Shown: positions 1,520 through 23,253 of the stretch, piece by piece
How the letters are laid out: every line of letters begins with the position of its first letter
How positions within the stretch are numbered: the first letter of the stretch is position 1
DNA from: a virus
Length of the DNA: 40,193 bases
Reading direction: 5' to 3' (one strand)
IMG/VR virus record: IMGVR_UViG_3300025154_000219
Span: 1 to 40,193 of that record
Made by a program: the position numbers and the translations under genes
The notes under the pieces: generated by a model
The model's input: only the letters and a program-made list of their open reading frames with translations
Database searches by the model: none
Told to the model about the DNA's origin: nothing

Positions 1520-3079
1520 TCAGTGATCACTGGTTTGTTTTGCCTCCGGTATTCCACGCTCCACCCTATATGCCCCCTTGAACCACTCAACGAGTAGGTG
1601 GTTGTTCTGCTGGAGAAACCAGACTATGTTATTGTCTATTACAAAAGTATTGCAGAAATCGTCTGCTGAACGGCAACCCCTCCCAGTTGCTTGGATCAGT
1701 TGTTGAACTACTTGGTAATTTATGAAGTCCTTATCCCCTTTCGATCGAGCACTGATGATTGTACCCCTGGTGTCCGGATAAGGCAGCTTCACAATGATCT
1801 GCCATCGACACTCCTCCCCTGGAAAGTCCCAGCCCGTAACCATCGACGGGCTGACGAGTACCATTGGAGCCGGAGAGGACTTAAACCCTCGGACTACGGC
1901 TTCAGTATTTGTCCTCTGGTGAGTAATCATATGGTCCTTGAACTTTGACCGCTCCAGTATCATATCACGCCGGGAGTAGGATACTGTGTGGATGATCCCC
2001 TTCGTCTGAAGGCGAGACTCGATGATAGAGTCTATCCTCGACATCAGGATTCTGTATTCCCCCTCTCCCGTCTTATAGTTCATCCTTACTGTAGGTAGAT
2101 GGATTAGGGGACGGTTCTCCACTGGAAATGAATGCGGGAACTCCCTGTACTCCATCTGTGATCGGGGAATACCGAGGAGATCCGCAGTCTTGGGGACGAC
2201 AGTAGCTGAGGTAAGGATTACCTTTGGAATTCCCAAAAATAGTACAGCTTCGGTAAACGGCCTGGGCCAGATTGGGCTTAGGGTTACGGCCATTGGGTTC
2301 GACTCCCATACCCAAGTTCGGTCTATATATTCGACCAGTTTCTCTAACTTCGACTGTATCCGGCTGAAGACTAGGAATCTCTTCTCCTTTCGTTTCAGTT
2401 TGGCCTCCCCCACCTCCACGATGGCATCCACAAGCTTCTCTTCCGCCCACGACTTCCAACCCTCTGCCGTCTGTGGTAGTTTCTTCTTTAGGTCAAGGAA
2501 GGATGTCTCGGTATGGTTGGATAGGGAGAAGGAAACGGAAGTGTGGTCGATTACATGATCTACCGCTGCATGAGCTTCATCTAGGATGAGGTTCTGAAAT
2601 TCTCCAATTCCCTCTCCATATTCGTTCTGAGCCATCCAGTAGCTGTAGTTGGTGATGACTATCTTAGCCCGTCGAGCCTGTCGAAGACGGTCGTAGTAGG
2701 TACAACCCCCCTGATCTCTCATTGCACACTTTACCCCGAAGGCGCAGAGGCCAGTGTCACAGTTCACCTTTGTGTTCAACCGACAGGGGTAGTTTCCCCT
2801 TCCCCGGATATCTACAATTTCCTCTACTGAACCAAACTCCCGCTCAAGCTGAGACTGGAGCCCCTTAGTTGAGGTGAGAATGACTGAGCGGCCTTCGGAG
2901 GCCATAGCCGCCGTGATGTAGGTTAGGGATTTTCCAAAACCAGTAGGACAGACTGCCATAGTAAAGCGGGGTGATGGCTGAAGCATAAGGAAGCAAGCTT
3001 CGTCCTGGTACGGCCTCCAGCGGTCAAACTTCTCTGGTAACCCAAAATAGATTGGGGCTGGAATAAATTCAGTAATCAT
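1520..3079 (-). CDS. DinG/XPD-like SF2 DNA helicase with iron-sulphur cysteines
   Basis: This 519-residue protein is a superfamily 2 helicase of the XPD/DinG group, expected to unwind DNA 5'-3' during phage replication or recombination. Motifs in order are a Q-like RPYQ region (residues 22-25), Walker A PTGFGKS (45-51), a cysteine cluster at about residues 98-130 (YPC, NC, LC, KC, GGC) matching the 4Fe-4S domain inserted after motif Ia, a DEAH box near residue 167, and motif VI QATGRGCRS near the C-terminus. The start ATG 3079 has AGGAGAAGTA upstream. It is shorter than typical DinG (about 700 aa), as phage versions often are. No replicative DnaB-type helicase was seen, so this may be the main helicase. 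Confidence 0.9.
   Translation of the reverse strand: MITEFIPAPIYFGLPEKFDRWRPYQDEACFLMLQPSPRFTMAVCPTGFGKSLTYITAAMASEGRSVILTSTKGLQSQLEREFGSVEEIVDIRGRGNYPCRLNTKVNCDTGLCAFGVKCAMRDQGGCTYYDRLRQARRAKIVITNYSYWMAQNEYGEGIGEFQNLILDEAHAAVDHVIDHTSVSFSLSNHTETSFLDLKKKLPQTAEGWKSWAEEKLVDAIVEVGEAKLKRKEKRFLVFSRIQSKLEKLVEYIDRTWVWESNPMAVTLSPIWPRPFTEAVLFLGIPKVILTSATVVPKTADLLGIPRSQMEYREFPHSFPVENRPLIHLPTVRMNYKTGEGEYRILMSRIDSIIESRLQTKGIIHTVSYSRRDMILERSKFKDHMITHQRTNTEAVVRGFKSSPAPMVLVSPSMVTGWDFPGEECRWQIIVKLPYPDTRGTIISARSKGDKDFINYQVVQQLIQATGRGCRSADDFCNTFVIDNNIVWFLQQNNHLLVEWFKGAYRVERGIPEAKQTSDH
1522..1531. promoter_or_regulatory. Perfect 10-bp palindrome, possible operator
   Basis: AGTGATCACT is self-complementary and lies 25 bp before the ATG of the AK-rich gene. 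It resembles the TGACCA/TGATCA dyads found before other phage genes at 9.2-10.8 kb, 22.0 kb and 40.0 kb, so it may belong to one operator family. It overlaps the last codons of the upstream helicase gene. Confidence 0.35.
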
Positions 3080-4536: not shown

Positions 4537-4581
4537 AACTGTAGTTCTACTAATCAAGTGCAAAAACAAGGAGGAAGACAA

Positions 4582-5700
4582 ATGAAACGAGGTAAATTGA
4601 ACATTGTATTTGGGGGTCAGGCCGGATCTGAAGCCAAGGGTAAACTCTCAGGGTTTCTGGCCGACAAATTTCACCCGGACCTACTGGTCATTACAGCCAG
4701 TCCAAATGCGGGACACACCATTATTATGCCTGGCGGGGAGAAAAAGGTAAGCTATCACCTCCCGATAGCCATGGCTATGTGTGACTGTCCTGTCATTCTA
4801 ACGGCAGCCAGTCTGATAAACTTTGATATCCTGGTGAAGGAAATAGAGGATCTGGGTGTGGATCCCAAACGGATCATTATCGACCCCAGAGCGTCTATCA
4901 TCCATAACCATCACATCGAATTGGAAGAGAAGGGAAAAAAGTCGGACATCGGGTCCACCCTCCAGGGTATAGGGGAATGCCGAATGTCGAAGATGATGAG
5001 GCTGGGTCGAGGTCATCATACTCTTGCCTATGACATCCGGGACATGTTTGATGGTTTGGGGATTGGGGTATTGGATTACCCATCCTCCGTTTGGGTGAAC
5101 GAGGCCCTATACTTCGGGGGGATGGTACTCTGCGAATCTACTCAGGGGTTCGACCTTGACTTGGAGCACGGTATCGATCCGGTCTACTGCACGTCGAAGA
5201 TGATCAACCCTTCAATGATTGCGGCTGAGGCGGGAGTTTCACCGGCAATGGTTGGTGATGTGGTGGCGGTCATCCGCCCCTACCCCATCCGGGTTTCCAA
5301 CCGCACTGGAACCAGTGGACCCTACGCTGACGCTAAGGAGATAGACTGGTCTACCGTTGCCCTTCGCTCAGGTTGTCCCCACGAACTGAAGGAAATCACT
5401 ACTACGACTAAACTTCCTCGCCGGGTCTTCGAGTTCTCCTGGGATCGCTTCTCTCATATGCTCCGGGTATGCCGTCCTACTTCCATCTGCCTCCAGTTTG
5501 CTAACTACCTGGACTGGTCAGTCTATGACCGAACTGACTTCGGGGATGATAGTTTTGAGGGGTTCGATCCAGTCTCCACCTTCATTCAAAGACTGGAGTC
5601 CTACAAGGTTCCCGTGGAATTCGTCGGTACTGGTCCAGGTCACGGGTCTATGATCTGGAGGAAGAACGCCAGGGAACTGATGATAGGCAGGAAAGACTGA
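4582..5700 (+). CDS. purZ: PurZ, N6-succino-2-amino-2'-deoxyadenylate synthase
   Basis: PurZ condenses dGMP with aspartate using ATP to give N6-succino-2-amino-dAMP, the committed step to dZTP; host PurB and kinases finish it. At 372 residues it carries the adenylosuccinate synthetase framework: GGQAGSEAKGK (residues 11-21) where PurA has GDEGKGK, NAGHT with catalytic-type His45, GSTLQGIG, ESTQGFDLDLEHG, and RPYPIRVSNRTGTSGPY. The PurA catalytic Asp is Ser16, the substitution that marks phage PurZ. The second Gly of the loop is Ala18, an added peculiarity. The start is ATG 4582 behind AAGGAGGA; the in-frame GTG 4558 lies upstream of that SD. It overlaps mazZ by one base. Confidence 0.93.
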   Translation: MKRGKLNIVFGGQAGSEAKGKLSGFLADKFHPDLLVITASPNAGHTIIMPGGEKKVSYHLPIAMAMCDCPVILTAASLINFDILVKEIEDLGVDPKRIIIDPRASIIHNHHIELEEKGKKSDIGSTLQGIGECRMSKMMRLGRGHHTLAYDIRDMFDGLGIGVLDYPSSVWVNEALYFGGMVLCESTQGFDLDLEHGIDPVYCTSKMINPSMIAAEAGVSPAMVGDVVAVIRPYPIRVSNRTGTSGPYADAKEIDWSTVALRSGCPHELKEITTTTKLPRRVFEFSWDRFSHMLRVCRPTSICLQFANYLDWSVYDRTDFGDDSFEGFDPVSTFIQRLESYKVPVEFVGTGPGHGSMIWRKNARELMIGRKD

Positions 5701-6263
5701 TGGCCGGTGATAGACAAGGCTTTATGGGGGACAATTCCATGTGTAATCACACCGTTGACTGCGACTGCTCGGTCTGCCAGGAATTTAACCGGTGTTTAGG
5801 CCCAGAAAACCTTGAGTGGTTTGCGGGTGAACATCCGAAACCAACACAGGAGGAAGGATCGATGAGTGATGACAAACTGTATGAGGCGGCTATGGAGAAG
5901 GAAAGGAGAAGGACGGAGGAGGGGACCAGGAATTCCTTCCGGACAGTGAAGGAAGAAAAGTCACAGGAGAAGGTTCCCTTCGCCGACATGCTCTCCGACT
6001 TTCACCTTGCTCTCACCGAAGTAGCCCGAGTTACATCTTTCGGCAACCAGAAGTATGGTGAACCTGGAGGCTGGCGAAAGGTCGAAGGTTTCCAGCGGTC
6101 CTACCAGAATAAAAAGGCAAGGCATGCTATGGAAGGTTTACTTCAGGATTTCGACGGGGAATCTGGCCTATTCTGTCTTGCTCATGAAGCCTGGAACGCT
6201 CTCGCCTTGCTGCAAGACAAGCTGGAGAAGATCGAGGGAGATAAGCGGAGAAGCTCTCGATAG
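5700..6263 (+). CDS. mazZ: MazZ-type dATP/dGTP diphosphohydrolase
   Basis: This enzyme family hydrolyses dGTP and dATP to monophosphates plus pyrophosphate. In Z phages it feeds dGMP to PurZ and lowers dATP. The C-terminal 125 residues fit the all-alpha DUF5664/MazZ pattern: LTEVARVTSFGNQKYGEPGGW, then RHAMEGLLQD, ESGLFCLAHEAWNALALL, with the expected Glu, Lys, Tyr, His and Asn positions. The start overlaps the purZ stop as TGATG. An internal ATG at 5862 has a much stronger SD (AGGAGGAAGG) and would give a 133-residue enzyme containing the whole catalytic domain. The extra N-terminal 54 residues include a cysteine cluster (MCNH, DCDCSVC) that may bind zinc. Either one long or two nested products is possible. 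Confidence 0.85.
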   Translation: MAGDRQGFMGDNSMCNHTVDCDCSVCQEFNRCLGPENLEWFAGEHPKPTQEEGSMSDDKLYEAAMEKERRRTEEGTRNSFRTVKEEKSQEKVPFADMLSDFHLALTEVARVTSFGNQKYGEPGGWRKVEGFQRSYQNKKARHAMEGLLQDFDGESGLFCLAHEAWNALALLQDKLEKIEGDKRRSSR

Positions 6264-9631: not shown

Positions 9632-9805
9632 TTAGTCTACTATTTGGTAGTGCCCTAATGTTGCCAGCCCAGTCTGTTTGTTGTAGGTATACCCATCCGA
9701 CAGCCTTATGTGATTCTTCATCACCTTAGCTATGCTGTACTCTTTGACTGTTCCTCTCAAGGTGTACCTAACTTTGACTTTCTGGCCCAACCTATAACTT
9801 GTCAT
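9632..9805 (-). CDS. Small beta-barrel-like hypothetical protein, 57 residues
   Basis: This 57-residue basic protein starts MTSYRLGQKVKVRYTLRGTVKEYSIAKV and reads like a small SH3-type barrel with alternating strand residues. This is loosely similar in design to the KKGD-type proteins at 6356 and 7092, though it is not clearly a relative. The start ATG 9805 is behind GAAGGAGGAACACA. The GTG/ATG candidates upstream lie inside the regulatory dyad. Its function is unknown. Confidence 0.6.
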   Translation of the reverse strand: MTSYRLGQKVKVRYTLRGTVKEYSIAKVMKNHIRLSDGYTYNKQTGLATLGHYQIVD

Positions 9806-9823
9806 TTGTGTTCCTCCTTCTTT

Positions 9824-9841
9824 GACCACTATTCAGTGATC
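9824..9841. promoter_or_regulatory. GACCACT-N4-AGTGATC dyad, possible operator
   Basis: The near-perfect inverted repeat lies 18 bp before the start of the gene at 9805 and immediately downstream of a TATAAC hexamer on the minus strand. Position just after a -10 box would suit a repressor site. The same arrangement is seen at 10318-10335. Confidence 0.5.
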
Positions 9842-9958
9842 TGTTATAGCCATCGCCACCCTAACTCCAATCTCTGCCATTGCCCATATTCCTCCGGATA
9901 CAAGCAGGAATGTGATTGCTGCTACAACCAGCAGTTCTGGTTCCCATCTGTGTTCCAT
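9833..9958 (-). CDS. Small single-pass membrane protein, 41 residues
   Basis: ATG 9958 with CAAGGAGAACGAAA upstream encodes MEHRWEPELLVVAAITFLLVSGGIWAMAEIGVRVAMAITDH. Residues 10-29 form one membrane helix. It ends inside the dyad at 9824-9841. The last 18 codons reappear, altered, at 10324-10378 without the first half of the gene, so part of this gene has been duplicated together with its downstream region. No function is known. Confidence 0.5.
   Translation of the reverse strand: MEHRWEPELLVVAAITFLLVSGGIWAMAEIGVRVAMAITDH
9843..9870 (-). promoter_or_regulatory. Putative leftward promoter TTGGAG-N16-TATAAC (copy 1)
   Basis: On the minus strand TTGGAG (9870-9865) is followed after 16 bp by TATAAC (9848-9843) and then the dyad 9841-9824. 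The same pair with the same spacing occurs at 10364-10337. Both lie in a duplicated segment that also encodes the end of a small membrane protein, so conservation could reflect coding rather than promoter function. Confidence 0.4.
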
Positions 9959-9999
9959 TTTCGTTCTCCTTGGTTTTGGGTTTTGGGCTATCTTCGCCT

Positions 10000-10269
10000 T
10001 TATTCCTGGAGACCGGAAACAAATCCGCTCATCCAGGCATCTTCAGCTTCTGATAGTGCGTTTGGGTTTTCTTCGTCGAACTCCAACATTACTCGTTCGA
10101 ACAGATCTTCTTTCAACCAGCTATCGTCATCCTCCTTGCAGATGAGAAAAGCAAGTGCGAAGGCCCTTCTTTCCGCTTCTGTCTGCAGTTCAGCGGCCTG
10201 TGTTTTTCTCCCTCTCCCCTCTTCTTTTCCCTCTTCTCGGGCTAATTCTGCCGTAGTGTTCTTTGCCAT
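10000..10269 (-). CDS. Acidic hypothetical protein, 89 residues
   Basis: This is an 89-residue, strongly charged, helical protein: MAKNTTAELAREEGKEEGRGRKTQAAELQTEAERRAFALAF, then an acidic C-terminus (EDDDSWLKEDLFERVMLEFDEENPNALSEAEDAW). Such acidic small proteins are common in phage early regions as inhibitors or DNA mimics, but there is no specific match. The ATG at 10269 has AAAGGAGAAGACT upstream. It is preceded by the second promoter/dyad copy (10318-10364). Confidence 0.65.
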   Translation of the reverse strand: MAKNTTAELAREEGKEEGRGRKTQAAELQTEAERRAFALAFLICKEDDDSWLKEDLFERVMLEFDEENPNALSEAEDAWMSGFVSGLQE

Positions 10270-10317
10270 AGTCTTCTCCTTTGTTTGTGTTGTGAGGTCT
10301 TGCCCCTACCCTTCTAT

Positions 10318-10335
10318 GACCATTCTTCAGTGGCC
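10318..10335. promoter_or_regulatory. GACCATT-N4-AGTGGCC dyad, possible operator
   Basis: An imperfect inverted repeat lies 48 bp upstream of the start at 10269, directly after TATAAC (10342-10337) of the putative promoter. It is the counterpart of the dyad at 9824-9841. Confidence 0.45.
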
Positions 10336-10336
10336 T

Positions 10337-10364
10337 GTTATAACTACTACCAATCTAACTCCAA
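10337..10364 (-). promoter_or_regulatory. Putative leftward promoter TTGGAG-N16-TATAAC (copy 2)
   Basis: TTGGAG (10364-10359) and TATAAC (10342-10337) are 16 bp apart on the minus strand, and the dyad 10335-10318 follows. Here the segment is no longer part of an intact gene, which favours a regulatory reason for its conservation. Confidence 0.45.
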
Positions 10365-10393
10365 TCTCTACCATTGCCCACATTCCTCCGATC

Positions 10394-10708
10394 TCACACT
10401 TCCTGTGTTCCGAGATCTCCGTCCACCACCTTCAGTCCGGCTTTGGCCAGCACTGCTTTCGCCTTCTCGATCCGTCTGGCTTCTGCTTCCTTCTTTTTCT
10501 GTCCCCCGCCTTCCGCTTCGGTCAGGATTGCTGCGTTCAGTCTGGCCTCTGCTGCCTGGAGTTGCTCTTTCAGTCGGTCCACTGCCCTCTGTGCGATCTG
10601 CACTCGAGTGAGGCCGATTCCTCCGTTGAGCTGGTTTGTGTTGAGTCCCACGTTGACTTGGGTGCCTGCTGCTGTTTTGGTTTCGCTGGTCTTGGTCTGC
10701 TTTGTCAT
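10394..10708 (-). CDS. Helical hypothetical protein, 104 residues
   Basis: This is a 104-residue basic protein with a Thr/Lys-rich N-terminus, then a long helix with heptad character at residues 38-90 (IAQRAVDRLKEQLQAAEARLNAAIL and the Lys/Glu stretch after), likely a coiled coil. The ATG at 10708 has AAAAAGGAGAACGACA upstream. The frame is open to 10768 through three 14-bp direct repeats, which are better read as control sites. A frame from ATG 10874 overlaps this gene out of phase. No homologue is recognised. Confidence 0.65.
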   Translation of the reverse strand: MTKQTKTSETKTAAGTQVNVGLNTNQLNGGIGLTRVQIAQRAVDRLKEQLQAAEARLNAAILTEAEGGGQKKKEAEARRIEKAKAVLAKAGLKVVDGDLGTQEV

Positions 10709-10730
10709 TGTCGTTCTCCTTTTTGTAGTT

Positions 10731-10768
10731 CTGTGACCACTGTTCTGTGACCACTGTTCTGTGACCAC
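10731..10768. repeat. Three 14-bp direct repeats, CTGTGACCACTGTT
   Basis: CTGTGACCAC begins at 10731, 10745 and 10759, an exact period of 14. The first two units are complete; the third ends in CTGTGACCACC. On the sense strand of the gene at 10708 this reads as three AGTGGTCACAG sites, 23 bp before the start codon. It is an array of the same word found singly before neighbouring genes. Confidence 0.85.
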
Positions 10769-10894
10769 CTCTCTCTGATTCGGAGAGTGGCTGTCTGTTT
10801 TGGGTTGCCCCGTCGGTGTGGGGTGTCCCTGTTCCCCACAGACCGGGGGTTGCCCCCTGGTTTTGGCGTATCATTGGTCGTTCTCCTTTTTAGG

Positions 10895-11107
10895 TTAGCA
10901 CAGATCTGTCGGGAAATCTGCTATTCTGTCAGCGTACCCCCTTGCCCAGTCCCCCACAGACAGGTCAGTGTGTTCTTTGTTGTCACACCAGTCCGAGACA
11001 ACCAGCACTGCCAGTGCGTTTGCCCATTCTTCGCTGCACTCTGGTAGCACATCCCGGATTCCTGCTACTGCCTCATTGTGTCTTCTGTTCCTGTCTTGGT
11101 TCGTCAT
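10895..11107 (-). CDS. Hypothetical protein, 70 residues
   Basis: This is a 70-residue acidic protein, MTNQDRNRRHNEAVAGIRDV with a helical middle (SEEWANALAVLVVSDWCDNKEH) and a C-terminal DWARGYADRIADF. It is the first gene of the leftward accessory cluster. ATG 11107 is preceded by GAGGAGGGCACGGCA. The frame extends upstream only as Arg/Gly/Pro-rich sequence of the G+C-rich gap, which is not convincing coding. No family is recognised. Confidence 0.65.
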   Translation of the reverse strand: MTNQDRNRRHNEAVAGIRDVLPECSEEWANALAVLVVSDWCDNKEHTDLSVGDWARGYADRIADFPTDLC

Positions 11108-11214
11108 TGCCGTGCCCTCCTCGTTTTGGGGTCGGAAGCCGCCCCCTACCCTTTTCCTTGCAACCCTCGTGCCAGTCCGAACCCGGCCCCAGACGGCACT
11201 CCCCGGCCCCAGAC

Positions 11215-11230
11215 CGGACATCCCATGTCC
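11215..11230. repeat. CGGACATCCCATGTCC, copy 1 (dyad)
   Basis: The 16-mer recurs exactly at 11292-11307. Each is an inverted repeat GGACAT-CCC-ATGTCC, so both are possible protein sites or small hairpins in the G+C-rich gap. Confidence 0.8.
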
Positions 11231-11291
11231 CGTCGAAACAGCGTTCCGTGCAGTGGCCACAGATCGCAGCCCCCCTGGCCTCCCTTCGAGG

Positions 11292-11307
11292 CGGACATCC
11301 CATGTCC
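11292..11307. repeat. CGGACATCCCATGTCC, copy 2 (dyad)
   Basis: This is the exact second copy of 11215-11230. Here the following G extends the dyad arms to seven bases (CGGACAT/ATGTCCG). Confidence 0.8.
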
Positions 11308-11690
11308 GACTCGTCTCCCGGTCTGCCTTCCAGCGTCCGGTCGACCAGCAGACCAGTGTTCGGTCTTCGGTATTTTGTTTTTCCCTCCGACTGGCGGTCG
11401 AAAGGTCGAATGGTGGTCGGAAGACTGAACGGCGGGTTTCCCCTCAAACAACGTTTTCGTGGCACGGGACTTGCAACGCGCGCGTGTTCCTCTTCCTGGG
11501 GGCGGGGCGACAACACCCGGCGCAAGCGAAAGCCCGACGACGACCACGGGGCAGGCTGCCGCCGATGGCTCTGGCCGATCGGCGAACGGTGCAGCAGAAC
11601 AGCAGGACGAAAGGCGAAACGAAAGTCGCACCCCCTGAACGACGGTCGAATCGGCAAACACCGGCCACGGCAAGGAATGCTAATCCCCCT

Positions 11691-11707
11691 TGGCAAGCCG
11701 TGTACAG
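11691..11707 (+). repeat. 17-bp direct repeat TGGCAAGCCGTGTACAG, copy 1
   Basis: This repeat is identical to 11916-11932, 225 bp apart in the same orientation. The TGTACAG end of the repeat also occurs at 12207-12213 and 12229-12235. Confidence 0.85.
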
Positions 11708-11915
11708 AGAAGCGAACAGGGCCGTCGGACGCGGACCTTCGTTCCACCCCCCGACCGGCGTTCGGAATTGTGGGCTATTGTTCAGCGAGTCGACCGGAAG
11801 TCGGCTTGGGGATCGTCGTTCAACCCGCAGGTCCGTGTTCCGTCTGCCGACTCACGTCTCTTGCACGGACCAGCGTTCAGCCTCACGTCCAGCAGTCGGC
11901 CAGCGAAACGGGGGA

Positions 11916-11932
11916 TGGCAAGCCGTGTACAG
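11916..11932 (+). repeat. 17-bp direct repeat TGGCAAGCCGTGTACAG, copy 2
   Basis: This is the exact copy of 11691-11707. It is directly followed by CAGCGTTC (11930-11937) and, 20 bp on, CAGTGTTC (11950-11957), making this the densest repeat cluster in the gap. Confidence 0.85.
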
Positions 11933-12372
11933 CGTTCACCCGGCGATAACAGTGTTCAGCAACCAAGCGCACCGTTGGGTCCCCCGGAGACAGGGGGGAA
12001 GGGGCACGAGGAGACACCCCATCCCCCTGGAGTAGTTGAGAGGATCCTATCGTGTTCGGAAGGTTACAACCCCTAGAATATTATACCCCCCGCTACACCA
12101 TATAGATGGGTGATGAGATAGTGGCGGTGGTCGGTGGTTTGAGGCTGGTGACTGTAGTCATCTTCCTCGACTTCCGATCCCCACCTTTAAACCGGATTAC
12201 AAACGATGTACAGGGGGTATACAAGCTTTGTACAGACCCCTGGGGAGGATTTAGGCTACTACCCCCGGCCACTGAGTCCCTGGTCCGCTCAGGTTCCTCC
12301 CCAACCTCAAACTTTCATGAGAGCACTACAGTAAAAATAGTACACCAACAACATACGGAAGGAAGAAGAACG

Positions 12373-12777
12373 ATGAGTTCCACCGTTACCCCAGAAATAA
12401 AAGAAGCCATGCTGTTGCTTCTTGAAGAAATACCATCAATCACCCAAGTCCGGAAGGTCTTCGGGATTAGCCAGTCTGCACTGGCGAGAGCGAGGGAGTC
12501 GGACCCCGACTTTGACCAGGCCATAAAGATGGCGAAAGAGGAAGGCTACGATCTGGCGGAAGAGGAAGCATACCGCCGAGCAGTGGTGGGAGTGGACAAA
12601 CCCGTGTTCTATCGGGGGGAGAAGTGTGGAGATATCCGAGAGTACTCCGATACCCTCCTCCAGTTCATCCTCCGGCACAATAGACCGAAGATATACAACC
12701 CTGGAGTGAAGATTACTGCTGGAGACGGGGAAAAAGTGGAATTTAGCTTCAATATTGGGTCTGGAGGGGGAGAGTGA
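12373..12777 (+). CDS. terS: Terminase small subunit (TerS-like)
   Basis: This 134-residue protein should recognise the packaging site and feed DNA to TerL. Residues 10-60 are a helix-turn-helix region (EIPSITQVRKVFGISQSALARARESDPDFDQAI). Next comes the oligomerisation part with a signature common to phage small terminases (EAYRRAVVGVDKPVFYRGEKCGDIREYSDTLLQFILRHNRPKIY). It is followed by lysis genes and terL, as in many phages. The start ATG 12373 has GGAAGGAAGAAGAACG upstream. The longer frame from 12106 adds unlikely sequence without an SD. It is the first gene of the rightward late block. Confidence 0.85.
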   Translation: MSSTVTPEIKEAMLLLLEEIPSITQVRKVFGISQSALARARESDPDFDQAIKMAKEEGYDLAEEEAYRRAVVGVDKPVFYRGEKCGDIREYSDTLLQFILRHNRPKIYNPGVKITAGDGEKVEFSFNIGSGGGE

Positions 12778-12835
12778 TGGTGGGGTGGGTACCGGTCACC
12801 CTACTACTGTTGGGGGGCGATGATAGGAGGAAGGG

Positions 12836-13216
12836 ATGACGATTAAGCCAGGAGAAATAGTGATCAAGGATCCTCAAGTTCTCGTCGGGCTTATGGAGCG
12901 TAGATTCTCCCCTCTCCTCATCACCATCATCTCGCAAGTGGCGAAGGATTATGGCCTGACTATAACTGAAAGCTACCGGGAACCCCGGCACTCCGGCGAC
13001 GTACACTCAACCCAACCAGTCCGGGCCGTTGACCTTCGATCCTGGGACTACCCTCCTGGGGTTGCTGGCCGTATAACTAACGAGATTAACTCTAGATGGT
13101 CCTACGACCCTGCCAGACCGGAAATGTTAGTCGCCCAAATCCACGAAGTCAAAGGAGGGGGACTTCACTTTCACATACAAGTACACCCAAATACAGTAAG
13201 GAGGTCCAATGGTTAG
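12836..13216 (+). CDS. Peptidase M15-like endolysin
   Basis: This is a 126-residue protein with the zinc-peptidase pattern of the M15 (D-Ala-D-Ala carboxypeptidase/L-Ala-D-Glu endopeptidase) family. An early Ser/Arg-Glu-Pro-containing YREPRHSGDVHSTQPVRAVDLR supplies His and Asp zinc ligands, and LHFHIQVH near the C-terminus supplies the HxH motif. It should cut peptidoglycan peptides at lysis. It starts with ATG 12836 behind GGAGGAAGGG and overlaps the following membrane protein by eight bases, forming an endolysin-holin pair between the two terminase genes. Confidence 0.75.
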   Translation: MTIKPGEIVIKDPQVLVGLMERRFSPLLITIISQVAKDYGLTITESYREPRHSGDVHSTQPVRAVDLRSWDYPPGVAGRITNEINSRWSYDPARPEMLVAQIHEVKGGGLHFHIQVHPNTVRRSNG

Positions 13217-13445
13217 CGGAAAGTTTAGAGCTAGACTGGCTACAATGGTGATGCTATTTTCCTTCGTTTACTTTTTTGTGATCACACTCATCCCAGTACC
13301 AGAACAGGCCATTAGAATTGCAGACACAATTCTTGGATTTCTCATGGGTACAGCCATAACTACAATCATAGGTTACTACTTTGGTGCCAGCGACGAAAAC
13401 TCGAGGCCCCAAGAACCATCGGACGTTAAGGGGAAGGAGGGGTAA
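13209..13445 (+). CDS. Putative holin, two membrane helices
   Basis: This is a 78-residue protein with two hydrophobic helices (residues 9-27, ATMVMLFSFVYFFVITLIP, and 33-55, ADTILGFLMGTAITTIIGYYFGAS), a basic N-terminus and a charged tail. This is class II holin-like topology, and the YYFGAS-plus-polar-tail end is common in phage holins. It overlaps the M15 endolysin gene and ends on the next start (GGGTAATGG). The role is inferred from topology and position. AAGGAGGTCC supplies the SD. Confidence 0.7.
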   Translation: MVSGKFRARLATMVMLFSFVYFFVITLIPVPEQAIRIADTILGFLMGTAITTIIGYYFGASDENSRPQEPSDVKGKEG

Positions 13446-13678
13446 TGGGCGATCTAATAGAGCTTGGTGGACCAACCAAATTAGACCTTCCCCCAGATCT
13501 AATTTTATCTAAAGCTTTAGGTCTTTTGGACTCAGTAGTTATCTGCGGGTTTGATAAGGAAGGAAAGGAATATTTTACGTCTTCAATGGCTGACGGAGGT
13601 GATACTCTATGGCTACTTGAAAGGTGCAAACTGGAACTCCTAACCAACTGTTGTACCCCTGAAGAGGAGGATCTCTAA
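13445..13678 (+). CDS. Conserved-type phage hypothetical protein, 77 residues
   Basis: This is an acidic 77-residue protein. The central VVICGFDKEGKEYFTSSMADGGDTLWLLERCKLELL resembles small proteins often seen in phage and prophage genomes near lysis or packaging genes (a Gly-Phe/Ile-Asp strand, then Asp-Gly-Gly and a helix WLLERxK). Their function is unknown. The start overlaps the preceding stop as TAATG, with AAGGAGGGG as SD. Confidence 0.7.
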   Translation: MGDLIELGGPTKLDLPPDLILSKALGLLDSVVICGFDKEGKEYFTSSMADGGDTLWLLERCKLELLTNCCTPEEEDL

Positions 13679-13687
13679 GGATTTCAA

Positions 13688-15136
13688 ATGAAAATCACCT
13701 ATACAGCCGAACCCACTCTCGCCCGTTTCCACCGTTGCCGAGCTTTCTATCGCTGCGTCCGTGGTCCAGTCCGTTCTGGCAAGTCCACCGCCATGTGTGC
13801 GGAGGGGATGATCATTGGGAATCAGCAAGCCCCCGACCCATCTGACGGCCTTCGAAAGACTCGTGGCTGCGTCGTCCGGAACACTTACCGTGAACTACTC
13901 GACACAACCCTCAAGACTTGGCTCATGTGGTTCCCCGAGTCAACCTTCGGACCCTTCAACTATGGGACGATGACACATCACATTCGGGTGAACGACATTG
14001 AGATGGAAGTCCTGTTCCGGGCCTTGGACCGCCCGGATGACGTGAAGAAACTGCTATCGCTCGAACTAACATGGGCCTGGGTAAATGAAGCCAGAGAAGT
14101 ACCGAGAGCTATCATCGACGTACTTGGAGATAGAGTTGAACAGTATCCACCAAAACGCTACGATGACTTCGGAAAGCAGATCAGTGGCTGTACCTGGGGT
14201 GGTGTCTTCCTCGACACCAATGCCCCGGACGATGACCACTGGTGGTTTGATTTGGAGGCCAATTCTCCTGCGGGTTGGGTATTTTTCGTCCAACCTGGGG
14301 CACTCCTCGAACATCAGGGTAAGTTCTTCTCCAACCCCAGAGCTGAGAATATCAGGAACTTGAATGGGGGACATAACTACTACCTCAAGCGTATGGCCGG
14401 GAAGACTGACTCCTACATCCGAGTTTACTACTGTAATCAGTTTGGGTTTGTGGAGGAAGGAAAGCGCGTTCACCCAGAGTATAACGACTCCATTCACTGC
14501 GCCGGGTACCAGCTTGTCCCCGATGTGAGGCATCCAGTAGTCATTGGTTTGGACTTCGGTCTTACCCCTGCTGCTGCCCTCTTCTCTCGTCGTCCCAACG
14601 GTCAGTGGTGGCTCTTCAAGGAAATAGTCACGGAAGATATAGGACTGAAGCAGTTTGGTGAACTTCTACTCCTCCCCTACATCCTGGAAAATCTCCTGGA
14701 CCACCAGATTGATGTCTACGGGGATACACACGGGGATATTGGGTCCCAGAACGACAAGAAGACCCCAGGCCAAATCTTCGAGGCTTTAGGGATAAAGGTG
14801 AAAATGCCCCAGATGGGTTGTGGTCCTCAACTTCGTCGGGAAGCTTTAGCCTCCCCCCTCTCTCGCCTGATCGATGGTGAACCGGGGTTGATCATTGATC
14901 CGGGTTGTAAAGTCATCCGCAAGGGTCTATCCTCCAAGTACATCTACAAGCGTATCCAGGTGATTGGAGATGAGAAGTACCACGACCAACCTGACAAGAA
15001 TTTCTGGTCGCATATCTGTGAAGCTGCAGAGCATGCCATGGTTGGAGCTGGGGAAGGAAAACTGCTGACGAGGGGTGTAGGGAAGAGTAAAAAGAAAGGA
15101 GTTAAGCGTAAACCCGTCGGGTGGATGGCACACTAA
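13688..15136 (+). CDS. terL: Terminase large subunit
   Basis: This is the ATP-driven motor and nuclease for DNA packaging, 482 residues. The ATPase part shows Walker A GPVRSGKST (residues 26-34), the arginine-rich strand CVVRNTYRELLDTTLKTW, and a Walker B-type strand LTWAWVNEAREV (about residues 124-135). The RNase H-like nuclease part shows VIGLDFGLTPAA (near residue 284) and VYGDTHGDIGSQND, supplying acidic metal ligands. The ATG at 13688 has TAAGGATTTCAA upstream. Together with the P22-type portal it suggests headful packaging, consistent with circular permutation. Confidence 0.92.
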   Translation: MKITYTAEPTLARFHRCRAFYRCVRGPVRSGKSTAMCAEGMIIGNQQAPDPSDGLRKTRGCVVRNTYRELLDTTLKTWLMWFPESTFGPFNYGTMTHHIRVNDIEMEVLFRALDRPDDVKKLLSLELTWAWVNEAREVPRAIIDVLGDRVEQYPPKRYDDFGKQISGCTWGGVFLDTNAPDDDHWWFDLEANSPAGWVFFVQPGALLEHQGKFFSNPRAENIRNLNGGHNYYLKRMAGKTDSYIRVYYCNQFGFVEEGKRVHPEYNDSIHCAGYQLVPDVRHPVVIGLDFGLTPAAALFSRRPNGQWWLFKEIVTEDIGLKQFGELLLLPYILENLLDHQIDVYGDTHGDIGSQNDKKTPGQIFEALGIKVKMPQMGCGPQLRREALASPLSRLIDGEPGLIIDPGCKVIRKGLSSKYIYKRIQVIGDEKYHDQPDKNFWSHICEAAEHAMVGAGEGKLLTRGVGKSKKKGVKRKPVGWMAH

Positions 15137-15195
15137 GGTGTAGGGGATTGAAATGCGGAAAACTGAAGATCAGCTTAATGAGGGATAAAGAGTAA

Positions 15196-17190
15196 ATGAC
15201 GACATTCAGCCTCACAAAAGTAGGGCGTATCGGTAGTGCAACGGGGCCTTTTTACTATCCTTGTGTTTTTGACACCTCCGCAATTACAAATTGGCCCTGG
15301 ACCCTAACGCTCGTATCATCACCTGATCATGTTGGCGGGGGGATTTATATGTATGGGTCTGTCGGAGATCCAGCCGTTTTAGGCAACTGGGAAAGCTACG
15401 ATGTTGGTCTCGCCGCCGGGAGATTTGATGCTTTTGCCACAAAACCAGCAGCCAACCCTATTTATAATGATCCTGATACAGGTGATAGCGAAACCCCTCA
15501 CATTGTAAAAATTGGCACCGATTTTTACCTTACTTCTCATGATGATACCGGGGCAGCGGATTACCAAGTGACAAGACTCGCTATTGCAGAAGATGCGCCT
15601 CTTAATTTTACCAGAATAGCAACCAACAGCGGCAAAGTTCTTGACCTCAATGCTGCACCCCTCACTGAATATCCCTGGAAAAGTGCACATAGCGGGTATT
15701 TTAGATGGGGATTGAATCCATTTTCGGGCGTGGCCTACACCTATGTGGGATACGGTTTATTCGGTGGTGGGGATGCTCCTCATTATGCAATTTGGGGCAG
15801 CAATGATGCAATTGCTTGGACTCTTATTTCTGTGTTGGATGGTCTAATAGACCCGAGTCTGCCAACCTCTCCATCACCTTGGGTTGTTAAAATAACGGAA
15901 ATAGACCCCCAGAGCATCACGTATGCTGGAGGTGGAGAATATGTGGCCCTTTGCCCCTGTGGGAATCCTGCATACAGCTCAGATAGCAGATATTCTGATT
16001 TATATGAAATATATTTAGGTCCGGACGGTTACACATTAACCCGTGAGCCTCGACTCGTTTTGTCCCGGGGGGCAGCATCCTCCTATGATGAATATGAAAT
16101 CGGCCAGCCGACAACTATTGAATATTCCGGGACAAAGTTATGTTTTTATCAGGGGGCTGATTCGTCTGCGGGGAATAGCCTAATGCTGGCGACATTTACT
16201 CTTGATGCCACAGTTGCAAAACCAGACCCGATATTAAGACGAAATCATGATAAACTGGTTTATGATGCCACTGGGTCAGCGGCGTTGCCTGCATGGCTTG
16301 AAGTAGAAGGAAATGCCCCTGTTCCATCTGCAACCGGTCTGAATTTTAATACATCCACAAGCGGTGTTAAATATGCGTCTGACCTTGACCCATCAGTAAA
16401 AACATGGATTGAAATGTCCATGGTGTTTGCTTATCGTGATTCTGCCGTAGGATTTATCCCCCGTTTTCAGGTTGGTGATACTGGACCAGGGACAACTGCA
16501 AATGGTTTTTTGGCCATCAGTTACACAAACGCTGGCGGCACGGGCCTGGGATATGTCGAGTTATTAGGTAGGAGCGGGGCAGCTTCAACCCAAACCGTAA
16601 TATCCAAGTATGCCTTAAAAAGCGATCAAAAGAAACGCCACCACGTAGGTATAGAGGTTGATTTATCAGCAAAGACTGCTAATTTCCTTGGTAATTCAAA
16701 TCAACCAAAAACCAATCTGGCATTTCCAGGGGCCACAATCCCTAATCCATACAGGCCAAGGATAAGTCAAGGTGATGCCACTGCTGGGGCGAATTTTATC
16801 CTGGAAAAAATAACGCTTCGGATGACCCCTGATGCTGCCGGTATAGCTCCTACAGTATCATCATCTGTTGTTGCTTCTACCACAGCGACTTTGACGCTCT
16901 CAGAGGATTGTATCGGTGATGGAGTCGGACTGGTCATTAAAGTAGGCGGCACGGCTATTGATGGTGTTTGGACTCGAACTGCCCTGAACGATATGGTTTT
17001 TACAAGGGACACCGGGACATTTGGTGAATCTGATGTAATCACGCTGGATGTGACAGATACGGACCTCAGAAATGAGGCTGATCTTGTAGCAGTCCAGAAT
17101 GTGACAGGTGTCGATATTCAGGCAGGTGGTTCAACCCTATTGTCTAGAGGTTCTGTATGGATGACAACATGGTCTAAAAGAAAACGGTAG
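15196..17190 (+). CDS. Beta-propeller and Ig-like virion protein, likely adsorption-related
   Basis: This is a 664-residue protein. Residues 1-340 have repeated strand patterns with W/Y and Asp positions reminiscent of five-bladed glycoside-hydrolase-type propellers (GH43/GH32-like: SETPHIVKIGTDFYLTSHDD, WKSAHSGYFRWG, YSDLYEIYLGPDGYTLTR). Residues 345-540 look like a lectin/laminin-G sandwich (VKTWIEMSMVFAYRD, KKRHHVGIEVDLSAKTANFLGN). The last about 100 residues look like a bacterial Ig-like domain (APTVSSSVVASTTATLTLSE). Enzymatic residues cannot be assigned. It sits between terL and the portal, an unusual place for a fibre-type gene. Its A+T-richer, shorter-codon style suggests later acquisition. 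The SD is weak. Confidence 0.65.
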   Translation: MTTFSLTKVGRIGSATGPFYYPCVFDTSAITNWPWTLTLVSSPDHVGGGIYMYGSVGDPAVLGNWESYDVGLAAGRFDAFATKPAANPIYNDPDTGDSETPHIVKIGTDFYLTSHDDTGAADYQVTRLAIAEDAPLNFTRIATNSGKVLDLNAAPLTEYPWKSAHSGYFRWGLNPFSGVAYTYVGYGLFGGGDAPHYAIWGSNDAIAWTLISVLDGLIDPSLPTSPSPWVVKITEIDPQSITYAGGGEYVALCPCGNPAYSSDSRYSDLYEIYLGPDGYTLTREPRLVLSRGAASSYDEYEIGQPTTIEYSGTKLCFYQGADSSAGNSLMLATFTLDATVAKPDPILRRNHDKLVYDATGSAALPAWLEVEGNAPVPSATGLNFNTSTSGVKYASDLDPSVKTWIEMSMVFAYRDSAVGFIPRFQVGDTGPGTTANGFLAISYTNAGGTGLGYVELLGRSGAASTQTVISKYALKSDQKKRHHVGIEVDLSAKTANFLGNSNQPKTNLAFPGATIPNPYRPRISQGDATAGANFILEKITLRMTPDAAGIAPTVSSSVVASTTATLTLSEDCIGDGVGLVIKVGGTAIDGVWTRTALNDMVFTRDTGTFGESDVITLDVTDTDLRNEADLVAVQNVTGVDIQAGGSTLLSRGSVWMTTWSKRKR

Positions 17191-17238
17191 AAAGTAGGCA
17201 AGTAATCTTAATCCAACAAGTATCTTCAGGAGAAACTA

Positions 17239-17592
17239 ATGGTTGCAATGCAGGAAAGAACACAGATTGTAACAATAGATCAAAGCGCTGAAATGTCTTC
17301 ATCTTTCAACATCAAATCCCACGAGGTATTTGTTGGGGTTGATTTCCCTGACATGGATGCAGGGTCCGTCGGTCTTCAGTACACCCGAGATGGTGGGACA
17401 AATTGGTCCCCGGTTCTCGATTCGGTCAGCGGGGATGATCTTCTGGTGGTCAAATCCGGATCAGATCCAGGAATCATTGATATATCTGATTTTGTTCGGT
17501 TTTCTCATTCGAATATACTACATAAATTCAGATTTACCTGTGCTGCTCAAACCACAGGGGCAGTGGAAATTGTTGTTTTAACTAGAGGATAG
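17239..17592 (+). CDS. Beta-sandwich hypothetical protein, 117 residues
   Basis: This is a 117-residue acidic protein of almost pure strand character (SFNIKSHEVFVGVDFPDMDAGSVGLQYTRDGGTNWSPV and a second half ending TGAVEIVVLTRG), likely a single jelly-roll or carbohydrate-type sandwich. The location directly before the portal and after the propeller protein suggests a virion component or decoration protein, but no family is recognised. The ATG at 17239 has CAGGAGAAACTA upstream. Confidence 0.65.
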   Translation: MVAMQERTQIVTIDQSAEMSSSFNIKSHEVFVGVDFPDMDAGSVGLQYTRDGGTNWSPVLDSVSGDDLLVVKSGSDPGIIDISDFVRFSHSNILHKFRFTCAAQTTGAVEIVVLTRG

Positions 17593-17596
17593 TCCT

Positions 17597-19753
17597 GTGG
17601 ATAAGCCCATTTTAGATACAACAGACAAATCTATCCCCAAGAAGGATAGAATCATCACTCAAGCCCTGTCCCGCTTTCGTACATCTATGGAGTCTGAAAG
17701 GGACAACAGGGAAGAGGCTAGGGATGACTTGGAGATGCTTGCTGGGAGAAATCATTGGCCAGCTAAAGTAGTGGCTGATCGTGAAGCTGAGGGTCGTCCA
17801 ACTCTTGTCATAAATAAACTCCCCGGTTTTGCCAATCGTGTGGTGAATGAAGGGAGAATAAATAAAGTAGCCATCAAGGTAGTCCCTGTGGGTGATGGGG
17901 CCACCGAGGACTCCAGCAAACTTCTCAACGGTCATATTCGGGCAATCGAGGCTAACTCCAAAGCTTCTCAAGCATACCAGAACGCCCACAAGGGTGCAGT
18001 CCAAGCCGGTTTTGGGTACTTTAGAATCGTCACTACGTATCTTGATGAGACTTCCTTTGATCAGGAAATACAGATTAAGCGGATCAAGAATAACATGGCG
18101 GTCCACTGTGACCCCTCCTCCACCGAACTTAATGGCTCCGACTCCATATTCTACTTTGTCTCTGAAATGATATCTAGGGAAGAGTACAAGGCCCGTTGGC
18201 CCAACTTAGACCCCCCTACTCCACTGCCCGACGAGGGATACTTGGAGGACTGGATAGAGGAGGATAACGTTAGGGTTGCCGAGTATTGGGTAAAGGAACC
18301 AAAAGAAAAGGTTATTCTTCTGCTCTCCGATGGCCGAACGGTGGAGGAGCAGGAATATCTGGCTGCTCTTCCTGGTCTTCAGGCAGAAGAGAAGATCGTC
18401 CATCTGGAACCTGCCGTACAGTCCCCCGTGAGGCCAGCACCCGAAGCCGGGCCTGTCTCCCCCGAAGAGGGTCCTTTGGCTAACAGTGACCCTATTGGTA
18501 GTGTTTCTCCTCCTCCTCCGGCTTCCGCCCCTCCCCCGACTCTGGTTGAGGGTCCGGCCCCTGAAGGCTCGGGATATCCTGAAGATATTCTTAATCCAGT
18601 TCCCACTATTCTTCGAAAGAGGACGGTGAAGTCCTTCGAGATAGTTCAGTACCTCATCGACGGGTCGAAGATTATTGAGGGTCCTACTCCTTGGGCCGGA
18701 CACTACATTCCGATCGTCCCTGTGTGGGGGGAGGAAATAGTGATAGATGAGAAGACTTACCGCCGAGGTGTCATTCGATTCGCCAAAGATCCCCAACGGA
18801 TGTACAACTACTTCAGGACAGCAGCAACGGAGACTGTAGCCCTTGCCCCTAAAGCACCATACGTAGGGACTGCAGATCAGTTCGAGGAATACGAGGATGA
18901 GTGGGAGAAGGCAAACACTAGCAATGTAGCCTTCCTGCGCTATAATCACGTTCCTGGGGTTAATCCCCCAGCCCGTCAAGTAGTCACCCAGACTGCAATA
19001 GGGGAAATCACGGAGAGCAACATATCCGGCGATGAAATGAAGGATACCACTGGAATTCAGGATGCCTCCCTCGGCGCACAGGGTAATGAGGTAAGTGGTA
19101 AGGCTATCAACGCTCGAAATTCTCAGTCGGATGTAATCAACTTTACCTACCACGATAACCTAGCGATTGCAATAGAATATGCCGGGACTATACTAATTGA
19201 CCTAATACCCCGGATCTATGATACTGAGCGGGATATAATGATCATTGATGATGAGGAGAAGGAGAAGATTGTACGGGTAAACCAGGAGGTAGTAGATCCG
19301 GCTACAGGAGAAAAACATATACTTAACGACCTAACTCAGGGGCGTTATAAGGTTACTGCAGTTCCAGGACCTTCCTTCCAGACTCAGAGGGATGAAGCTG
19401 CTGCCGGTATGCTTGACTTTATCCGCACGGCCCCCGAATCCGCTCGATTCGTTATGGACTTGATTGCAGAGAACCAAAACTGGCCGACGGCGAAGAAGAT
19501 TGCAAACCGACTGAAGAAACTACTTCCGGCCGGGATAGATGAGGAGGGTCCACTTCCTCCTTCTCCCCCGAATCCGGACGATCAAATCAAGAATCTGAAG
19601 GCTCAGGGGATTACGCTGGGAAATGAAATGAAGAAACTGTCTATAGTAGACAAACGAAGGAAGTTGACTGACGATGAAATGGCACTTGCCCGAATCGTTG
19701 ATCTGGTAAAGAAAACAGGATACAAACCGGAAGGAGGAGAAAGTGGGCAGTAA
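17597..19753 (+). CDS. Portal protein, P22 family
   Basis: This 718-residue protein forms the dodecameric ring through which DNA enters and leaves the head. P22-portal features include an N-terminal RFRTSMESERDNREEARDDLEMLAGRNHWP block, VINKLPGFANRVVNEGRINKVAIKVVPVG, HKGAVQAGFGYFRIVTTYLDETSFDQEIQIKRI and the DPSSTELNGSD stretch, then late helices. Its length is close to P22 gp1 (725). It uses GTG 17597, with AGAGGA about seven bases upstream. Residues about 268-331 hold a Pro/Ala/Glu-rich insertion (PPPPASAPPPT) that is probably disordered and is not usual in the family. Confidence 0.92.
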   Translation: MDKPILDTTDKSIPKKDRIITQALSRFRTSMESERDNREEARDDLEMLAGRNHWPAKVVADREAEGRPTLVINKLPGFANRVVNEGRINKVAIKVVPVGDGATEDSSKLLNGHIRAIEANSKASQAYQNAHKGAVQAGFGYFRIVTTYLDETSFDQEIQIKRIKNNMAVHCDPSSTELNGSDSIFYFVSEMISREEYKARWPNLDPPTPLPDEGYLEDWIEEDNVRVAEYWVKEPKEKVILLLSDGRTVEEQEYLAALPGLQAEEKIVHLEPAVQSPVRPAPEAGPVSPEEGPLANSDPIGSVSPPPPASAPPPTLVEGPAPEGSGYPEDILNPVPTILRKRTVKSFEIVQYLIDGSKIIEGPTPWAGHYIPIVPVWGEEIVIDEKTYRRGVIRFAKDPQRMYNYFRTAATETVALAPKAPYVGTADQFEEYEDEWEKANTSNVAFLRYNHVPGVNPPARQVVTQTAIGEITESNISGDEMKDTTGIQDASLGAQGNEVSGKAINARNSQSDVINFTYHDNLAIAIEYAGTILIDLIPRIYDTERDIMIIDDEEKEKIVRVNQEVVDPATGEKHILNDLTQGRYKVTAVPGPSFQTQRDEAAAGMLDFIRTAPESARFVMDLIAENQNWPTAKKIANRLKKLLPAGIDEEGPLPPSPPNPDDQIKNLKAQGITLGNEMKKLSIVDKRRKLTDDEMALARIVDLVKKTGYKPEGGESGQ

Positions 19754-19919
19754 CAGAGAGACATTGAGAGGTGGAGATATAGAGGCTATCCGGAGCAAGA
19801 TGAGGGATGAAGGTAGACCCCTGAAATCCAGCATAGTTATTAAAGAAGGAAAACATCACCACTACGAGGTTGACCACAAAACCGGCCGAGTAGAGGTGAA
19901 GGAAATAATTGGACGTTAA
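19743..19919 (+). CDS. Small basic hypothetical protein, 58 residues
   Basis: GTG 19743, inside the end of the portal gene and directly behind AAGGAGGAGAAA, opens a 58-codon frame: residues MGSNRETLRGGDIEAIRSKM, then EGRPLKSSIVIKEGKHHHYEVDHKTGRVEVKEIIGR. It has an HHHY run and a strand-hairpin end. It overlaps the portal by 11 bases and fills the gap before the scaffold gene. The strong SD and tight packing support it as real, and a role in head assembly is possible from position only. Confidence 0.65.
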   Translation: MGSNRETLRGGDIEAIRSKMRDEGRPLKSSIVIKEGKHHHYEVDHKTGRVEVKEIIGR

Positions 19920-19992
19920 CCCTATTTAACCGTCTGGGGGCGCATCCCCCTGCTATTCGAGGGTGGACTCGAAAACCACAATGGAGGACAAA

Positions 19993-20775
19993 ATGAAGTT
20001 TGATGAGAATGGAAACCCGGTCATTGAGACTGACCCTGGCGTAGTTGCAGATCCGCCACCTGCAGATTCGACTGTAACCCCTGACCTTGAAGACCCGTCA
20101 TCTTCAACAGGAACAAGACGTAAACCTGGGGCAGAGGAAAGAATCAGTCAACTCGTAGCTGAACGAGAATTTTGGCGGGGGAAAGCCGAGGCTTCGGCCC
20201 ATAGACTGCCCGTAGCCCAGGAAGAACATGCCAGTTCGACCCCCACCAAGGAGCTGGACCCCAACGACTTCGACAGTGACGCAGACTATCTGAAGGCTGT
20301 AGCCAAGCAGACGAAGGACGAGATCCGGGCCGAGTTCGCCCGAGAGAAGGCGAAGGAGAAGGCAACACAATCTGTAGCTGAGGTTCAGACTAAGTATGCC
20401 GAAGCTAGGAAGAAATACCCCGACTTTGATACTGTTGCTCTCGACCCGTCCCTTCCGGTAACCGCCACAATGTTTGATGCGGCTAAAGGGGATCACGTAG
20501 CAGATATACTCCACGCCTTGGGATCAAACAGGACTGAAGCGGCAAGGATAGCCTCCCTCTCTCCCATTCAGCAGGTAAAGGAAATTGGAAAGATAGAAAG
20601 TAGGTTAACTTCAACAACAACAAAGAAAGTGTCTTCGGCTCCAAGTCCGCCGTCTACCATCTCAGGGGGTGGAGGTTCACCCCTACCCAAGAAGGAAGAA
20701 GATATGAGTTGGGCTGAGAAAAAGGCTAAATGGGCTAAGGAGCGGGAAGATGCTGTAAGGAAAAAATATGTCTAA
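19993..20775 (+). CDS. Putative scaffolding protein
   Basis: This is a 260-residue, highly charged and helical protein: an acidic/Pro-rich N-terminus, long Lys/Glu-rich helices (residues about 95-140), a Ser/Pro/Gly-rich linker, and a basic C-terminal helix (MSWAEKKAKWAKEREDAVRKKYV). Position between portal and coat plus a basic helical C-terminus match the P22-type scaffold, where such a helix contacts the coat protein. The start chosen is ATG 19993, with GGAGGACAAA before it; an upstream frame from 19963 lacks an SD. It overlaps the coat gene by eight bases. Confidence 0.75.
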   Translation: MKFDENGNPVIETDPGVVADPPPADSTVTPDLEDPSSSTGTRRKPGAEERISQLVAEREFWRGKAEASAHRLPVAQEEHASSTPTKELDPNDFDSDADYLKAVAKQTKDEIRAEFAREKAKEKATQSVAEVQTKYAEARKKYPDFDTVALDPSLPVTATMFDAAKGDHVADILHALGSNRTEAARIASLSPIQQVKEIGKIESRLTSTTTKKVSSAPSPPSTISGGGGSPLPKKEEDMSWAEKKAKWAKEREDAVRKKYV

Positions 20776-22024: not shown

Positions 22025-22029
22025 TGGAC

Positions 22030-22055
22030 TCTGACCATTGATCACCTACTATAAC
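22030..22055 (+). promoter_or_regulatory. TGACCATTGATCAC site followed by TATAAC, possible regulated promoter
   Basis: Between the coat gene and the next ORF the plus strand has GACCATTGATCAC (22033-22045), a member of the TGACCA-type dyad family, then TATAAC at 22050-22055. No good -35 lies at the usual distance. This could be a promoter controlled by the same factor as the accessory cluster. Confidence 0.3.
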
Positions 22056-22064
22056 ATTAAATTT

Positions 22065-22087: not shown

Positions 22088-22101
22088 AGTTTAGGAGACA
22101 T

Positions 22102-23244: not shown

Positions 23245-23253
23245 ACTTTAGAT

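Follow-up and report, generated by a model that had tools for sequence, protein, structure and literature searches.

The uncultured virus of bacteria described here, for which the whole IMG/VR virus record IMGVR_UViG_3300025154_000219 was analysed (40,193 nt; hereinafter, the window), encodes PurZ, a homologue of succino-2-aminodeoxyadenylate synthetase, next to a DUF5664 protein, as well as a family A DNA polymerase with an altered residue in helix O. This phage probably replaces adenine (A) in its DNA by 2-aminoadenine (Z), via a lean, separately assembled variant of the known pathway. The chemistry of Z is already known; the lineage and the gene combination are new, namely, a further branch of phage PurZ that joins a PurZ0-like loop to an ATP-type nucleotide site, a pool module that consists of DUF5664 only, and a third type of polymerase with Asn at the position of Tyr766 of Escherichia coli Pol I. 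Predicted Z-genomes are thus extended to an uncultured P22-like phage lineage in which PurZ is at most 36% identical to its homologues in GenBank phages.

A distinct branch of phage PurZ

4582-5700, plus strand: purZ, succino-2-aminodeoxyadenylate synthetase homologue, 372 amino acids, ATP-type nucleotide site
4612-4644, plus strand: P-loop-like GGQAGSEAKGK, residues 11-21 (codon of Ser16 at 4627-4629, codon of Ala18 at 4633-4635)

The ATG of purZ at 4582 is preceded by AAGGAGG (4568-4574), and the stop codon ends at 5700. An earlier note on this DNA had described an adenylosuccinate synthetase homologue with the loop GGQAGSEAKGK, in which Ser16 replaces the catalytic Asp of PurA and the other PurA motifs are kept. 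All this holds: the loop is present at residues 11-21, the alignment pairs Ser16 with Asp13 of E. coli PurA and Ser23 of PurZ from cyanophage S-2L, and NAGHT, ESTQGFDLD and RVSNRTGTSGP are all found in the open reading frame (ORF). Among sequence profiles, the ORF matches Pfam PF00709 (E=7e-29) and phrog_1211, '2-aminooxy adenylosuccinate synthetase' (E=5e-55), and its best NCBIfam model is that of PurZ, NF038379. PADLOC recognised neither PurZ nor the protein encoded next to it.

The dGMP and ATP contacts of S-2L PurZ, as listed in PMC8342488, were transferred to the window protein by alignment. All 15 positions of the dGMP pocket are kept (G15, S16, N42, A43, G124, S125, T126, R140, Q188, Y202, C203, T204, R237, V238 and R280), as are the Asp-binding loop (TTTT; TTVT in S-2L PurZ) and the PurZ-type insertion. 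At the nucleotide donor site, F306 and N308 match the Phe and N297 of PurZ from vibriophage phiVC8; the GTP-type Asp that occupies this site in PurA, PurZ0 and the sampled cellular Ser-type proteins is not found in the window protein. We predict that the window protein is an ATP-using PurZ.

In the maximum-likelihood tree of 56 proteins (another tree took in 81), the window PurZ and nine relatives from IMG/VR, which are 43-72% identical to it and all share QAGSEAKG, form a clade of their own with support of 100/100; the catalytic Asp is lost in 10 of the 10 clade members. This clade is nested in a phage group of 35 rows (support 100/99) that encompasses phiVC8, S-2L, SH-Ab 15497, ZP6, Bm1 and vB_BpsS-140, with PurZ0 (Wayne, Ghobes, Hiyaa) and most of the cellular Ser-type proteins falling outside. 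Such a tree had been proposed in the earlier note as a check; placement within cellular PurA did not occur, PurA being excluded at 100/99. The AlphaFold (AF2) model of the window PurZ has a predicted local distance difference test score (pLDDT) of 77 and a predicted template modelling score (pTM) of 0.83, and its first match in the PDB is S-2L PurZ (7ODX). The active-site residues, the tree placement and the modelled fold all back the earlier identification of this homologue as PurZ, which we consider strongly supported.

The window PurZ shares the dGMP pocket, the Asp loop, the Phe/Asn ATP site, the PurZ-specific insertion and the phage clade with the PurZ proteins of phiVC8, Acinetobacter phage SH-Ab 15497 and S-2L, but is only 29-35% identical to these, belongs to its own 100/100 clade, has GSEAKG in the loop where they have GSTGKG, and lacks DatZ or MazZ neighbours. 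In the GSEAKG loop with Ala, it resembles actinophage PurZ0 (Wayne, Ghobes, Archimedes), and in Wayne, a stand-alone DUF5664 gene follows purZ0 as it follows purZ in the window; however, a GTP-type Asp site and a separate clade are characteristic of PurZ0, and DutZ and DmtZ of the PurZ0 phages are absent from the window genome. The closest phage homologue in GenBank, with 36% identity and a common NFANY ATP site, is PurZ of Bacillus phage vB_BpsS-140 (MH884512), which lies outside the window clade and has different surroundings (RecA, Adk, sigma factor). Given that the best homologue is only 36% identical, the window clade is unrepresented among sequenced GenBank phages.

A DUF5664 gene beside purZ, and no MazZ or DatZ

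5700-6263, plus strand: DUF5664/dGTP_diPhyd_N (PF18909) protein, predicted dATP/dGTP pyrophosphohydrolase
5-130 and 40068-40193, no strand: two identical copies of a 126-bp terminal direct repeat

Directly downstream of purZ, and overlapping its stop codon with its own start (TGATG), is the gene for a stand-alone DUF5664 protein with a Cys-rich N-terminal extension (PF18909, 55.5 bits, with a gathering cut-off of 27). The earlier note had placed MazZ next door; the neighbour matches PF18909 and no model of the MazG/MazZ type, so that MazZ was rejected in favour of DUF5664. Like the DUF5664 dATP/dGTP diphosphohydrolases, the window protein exceeds the PF18909 cut-off and adjoins purZ, but unlike the one of SH-Ab 15497, it is not fused to DUF550. 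Across the 10 dereplicated clade members, a PF18909 gene above the cut-off is found downstream of purZ in 9 (the window, L001, L016, L021, L022, L023, L025, L026 and L027, the last with two other genes in between), L024 being the only exception.

The 126-bp terminal repeat, together with a gene that spans the repeat junction of the window record and is uninterrupted in the relative L001, indicates that the genome is complete (circularly permuted or circular) at approximately 40.06 kb, so that gene absences are informative. None of the window ORFs matched the models of MazZ-1, MazZ-2, DatZ, DutZ or DmtZ that were built from the reference phages. Thus, the claim that the window holds the known set of genes for the replacement of A by Z did not stand: the partner of purZ is DUF5664 rather than MazZ, DatZ is missing, and the polymerase belongs to neither of the DpoZ clades (see below).

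The DUF5664 enzymes of Z-phages convert dATP and dGTP to the monophosphates, with an approximately tenfold preference for dATP (PMC12884076). A single enzyme of this kind could both provide dGMP for PurZ and clear away dATP; this would account for the absence of DatZ as well as that of MazZ.

Beside purZ in two clade members, a DUF7768 domain (PF24963) either forms part of the DUF5664 protein or is encoded next to it (L025:3701-4474 and L026:2848-3195). By eye, DUF7768 resembles proteins of the nucleoside deoxyribosyltransferase type and is a possible analogue of DmtZ.

A substitution in helix O of the DNA polymerase

33820-36486, minus strand: DNA polymerase, 888 amino acids, with family-4 uracil-DNA glycosylase (UDG), 3'-5' exonuclease and family A polymerase domains; candidate Z-selective polymerase
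34351-34353, minus strand: codon of the helix-O residue Asn712, which corresponds to Tyr766 of E. coli Pol I

Helix O of the window polymerase reads RVGFGILNLITAEGL, with Asn712 at the position of Tyr766, a residue said to be conserved throughout the family A polymerases (PMC4882331); the metal-binding acidic residues of the exonuclease domain are in place. Both known DpoZ clades have Phe at this position (PMC8599892), which we observed again with the exception of the PurZ0-type phage Hiyaa, where Tyr is kept. As with DpoZ (DpoZ-1 of the Wayne type and DpoZ-2 of the phiVC8 type), the window protein is a family A polymerase with an exonuclease that has lost the helix-O Tyr, but it differs in having Asn instead of Phe, in the fused UDG domain and in its placement: in a tree built without the motif columns, it groups with UDG-PolA relatives, away from both DpoZ-1 and DpoZ-2. 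It scores below the cut-offs of the NCBIfam DpoZ models NF038380 (97.7 against 500 bits) and NF038381 (60.1 against 350 bits).

Within the UDG-PolA family, Tyr is replaced in all 12 PurZ-bearing records, by Asn in 10 and by Thr in 2 (L252 and L253), whereas Tyr is kept in all 8 of the long records that lack PurZ; these 8 do not include L244, a close Tyr-bearing relative that is a 6.5-kb fragment. For the entire set of collected polymerases, Tyr is lost in 39 of the 52 rows linked to PurZ and in 2 of the 27 unlinked rows (26 virus records and E. coli). These counts are suggestive of a link between the loss of Tyr766 and PurZ.

The Thr-containing polymerases of L252 and L253 form a second UDG-PolA branch, and these records carry another PurZ lineage; L252 also encodes a YfbR/DatZ-like protein (L252:4633-5262). 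Outside the window clade, the helix-O Tyr is lost in other PurZ-bearing viral lineages, with Thr in L045, L046, L049, L060, L066, L074 and L080, Asn in L030 and L033, and Gly in L050. In the polymerase gene of the L027 record (L213/L216), motif A (DY//SQ) is interrupted by an intein-like insertion of about 250 residues.

A putative pathway to Z-DNA and its alternatives

In the pathway that we propose, the DUF5664 protein would hydrolyse dGTP to dGMP and dATP to dAMP; PurZ would then join dGMP and aspartate, at the expense of ATP or dATP, to yield N6-succino-2-amino-dAMP; PurB and kinases of the host would convert this product to dZTP; and the UDG-exo-PolA polymerase with the Tyr to Asn change in helix O would favour dZTP over the depleted dATP for incorporation opposite T. 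The sequence data establish which genes are present, their active-site residues, the clade, the pairing of purZ with DUF5664, the completeness of the genome and the altered residue of the polymerase; the enzyme activities, the preference for dZTP and the use of Z in virion DNA are inferred. A bolder proposal, in which our confidence falls somewhat short of even, is that the clade represents a third separately assembled system of Z-DNA replication, where Asn (or Thr, in the second branch) renders a UDG-fused polymerase outside DpoZ-1 and DpoZ-2 Z-tolerant or Z-selective, and one DUF5664 enzyme covers the roles of DatZ and MazZ. The combination of purZ with the DUF5664 gene offers a minimal gene set for tests of Z-DNA synthesis in E. 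coli, and a polymerase with a single striking change at a fidelity residue provides a handle on how polymerases choose Z over A.

Several facts weigh against the replacement of A by Z. The window PurZ falls short of the NF038379 cut-off (175.3 against 300 bits), a naming threshold that reflects no biochemical trait; hence we classify the protein as a new lineage within the PurZ group rather than as a named member of NF038379. The archaeal PurA model PRK04293 scores 167 bits, little less than the PurZ model. DatZ (YfbR-like HD, PF12917), which most PurZ phages possess, was not found in the complete window genome. With phylogenetic control, the link between Tyr766 and PurZ comes down to 3 supported pairs and the sign test is not significant, there being too few independent pairs; furthermore, Tyr is retained by 13 of the PurZ-linked polymerases, and conversely, L292, a 46.8-kb record, encodes a PolA with Asn at this position although no PurZ was found in it. 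The most awkward fact for full replacement across the clade, and one that fits poorly with it, is the gene for an MT-A70 adenine-N6 methyltransferase (PF05063, 80.6 bits) located between purZ and the DUF5664 gene in L027 (L027:11421-11954).

The alternative that survives best, although we consider it unlikely, is that a true PurZ brings about only partial replacement, with an unspecialised polymerase producing mixed A/Z DNA, which would be enough to block some restriction enzymes. The missing DatZ, the methyltransferase gene beside purZ in L027 and the retention of Tyr766 by the polymerases of certain PurZ phages are all compatible with such an arrangement; however, the preference of Z-phage DUF5664 enzymes for dATP (PMC12884076) could deplete dATP, and the window polymerase has Asn where its Tyr-bearing relatives do not. 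It is far less probable that the protein is a Ser-type paralogue of PurA that makes another aminated purine nucleotide, a free metabolite (for example, a poison of host enzymes or a counter-defence agent) rather than a DNA letter. Cellular Ser-type proteins are indeed encoded near kinases, lyases and potential defence genes, so that Ser does not fix the role, but these proteins keep the Asp of the GTP site and, with few exceptions, fall outside the phage clade, whereas the window PurZ has an ATP-type site together with the complete dGMP pocket known from characterised PurZ proteins; moreover, its gene adjoins one for a dNTP-hydrolase-like protein, and the genome also encodes an altered polymerase. 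An ordinary PurA, encoded by the phage as an auxiliary metabolic function to raise adenine nucleotides from IMP, is an extremely improbable reading: the PurA fold and the nearly equal score of the archaeal PurA profile agree with it, but the clade-wide loss of the catalytic Asp, the PurZ-type insertion, the ATP-type site and the exclusion of PurA from the phage group in the tree do not.

Ser-type homologues in cellular genomes

The earlier note had taken Ser16 as the diagnostic hallmark of phage PurZ and hence as evidence for a Z genome. By itself, this residue fails as a diagnostic because Ser-type homologues are present on many bacterial and archaeal chromosomes beside a normal PurA: a scan of prokaryotic genomes yielded 284 stretches that encode Ser-type homologues, and full-length PurA was also present in 15 of the 15 such genomes that were checked. 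The Ser change alone is therefore ruled out as proof, and we caution against diagnosing a Z genome from it. A 2026 study, for which no more than two sequences per phylum were sampled, reported just four Ser/Gly sequences from archaea within the PurZ group (PMC12884076). The second distinctive residue of the loop, Ala18, had been noted as unusual and potentially lineage-specific. It is invariant in the window clade, but it is also found in actinophage PurZ0 (Wayne, Ghobes and Hiyaa), so that its reading as a lineage-specific oddity was rejected.

Two types of chromosomal neighbourhoods stand out. At L106:8040-12282, a fusion of a kinase with a Ser-type PurZ is encoded beside DUF7002, a second kinase and an ImmA/IrrE-macrodomain protein (CapP/DarG-like in PADLOC); about 41 bacterial and archaeal loci resemble this arrangement, which looks like an undescribed island of the defence type. 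At L168:9995-14114 (Lokiarchaeota), a Ser-type PurZ-like gene is clustered with genes for a PurB-like lyase and a deoxynucleoside kinase, or a dCTP-deaminase-like protein, and akin neighbours are found in L121, L104, L126, L130 and others; such clusters could constitute a cellular route to an aminated deoxypurine nucleotide.

Other genes of the window

12106-25916, plus strand: P22-like virion module (terminase, portal, P22 coat protein, Hc3 connector)
1520-3079, minus strand: DinG/Rad3-like helicase, replication module
38522-39268, minus strand: Sak4-like AAA recombinase
37401-38096, minus strand: ERCC4/XPF-family nuclease with helix-hairpin-helix (HhH)
36871-37404, minus strand: small all-helical protein with an H..HD..H..DK pattern, possible HD-superfamily phosphohydrolase

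The virus is a complete uncultured virus of bacteria with P22-like virion genes; a search for close phage relatives at the DNA level found none. Its replication genes, identified by profile matches, encode the DinG-like helicase, the Sak4-like recombinase and the XPF-type nuclease, in addition to the UDG-exo-PolA polymerase.

The small all-helical protein encoded at 36871-37404 has homologues in five clade records and a weak one in L032. It shows weak similarity to the HD superfamily (PhnZ, E=0.015; Pfam HD, E=0.027 in one homologue), and its AF2 model has no significant match in the PDB; its assignment as an HD-superfamily phosphohydrolase is possible but uncertain. Its identification as DatZ is not supported given that it neither matches the DatZ profile nor aligns with DatZ. 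A Manatee Spring podovirus, in which PurZ was not detected, has a homologue of this protein and an annotated DNA adenine methylase gene.

The minus strand at 39249-39938 encodes a nucleotidyltransferase-like protein (phrog_1614, phrog_4400), of which no counterpart was seen at the corresponding place in L001. The segment at 9700-12080 contains long overlapping ORFs on both strands, which have no clear family match, and is richer in G and C (0.575 at 10-12 kb).
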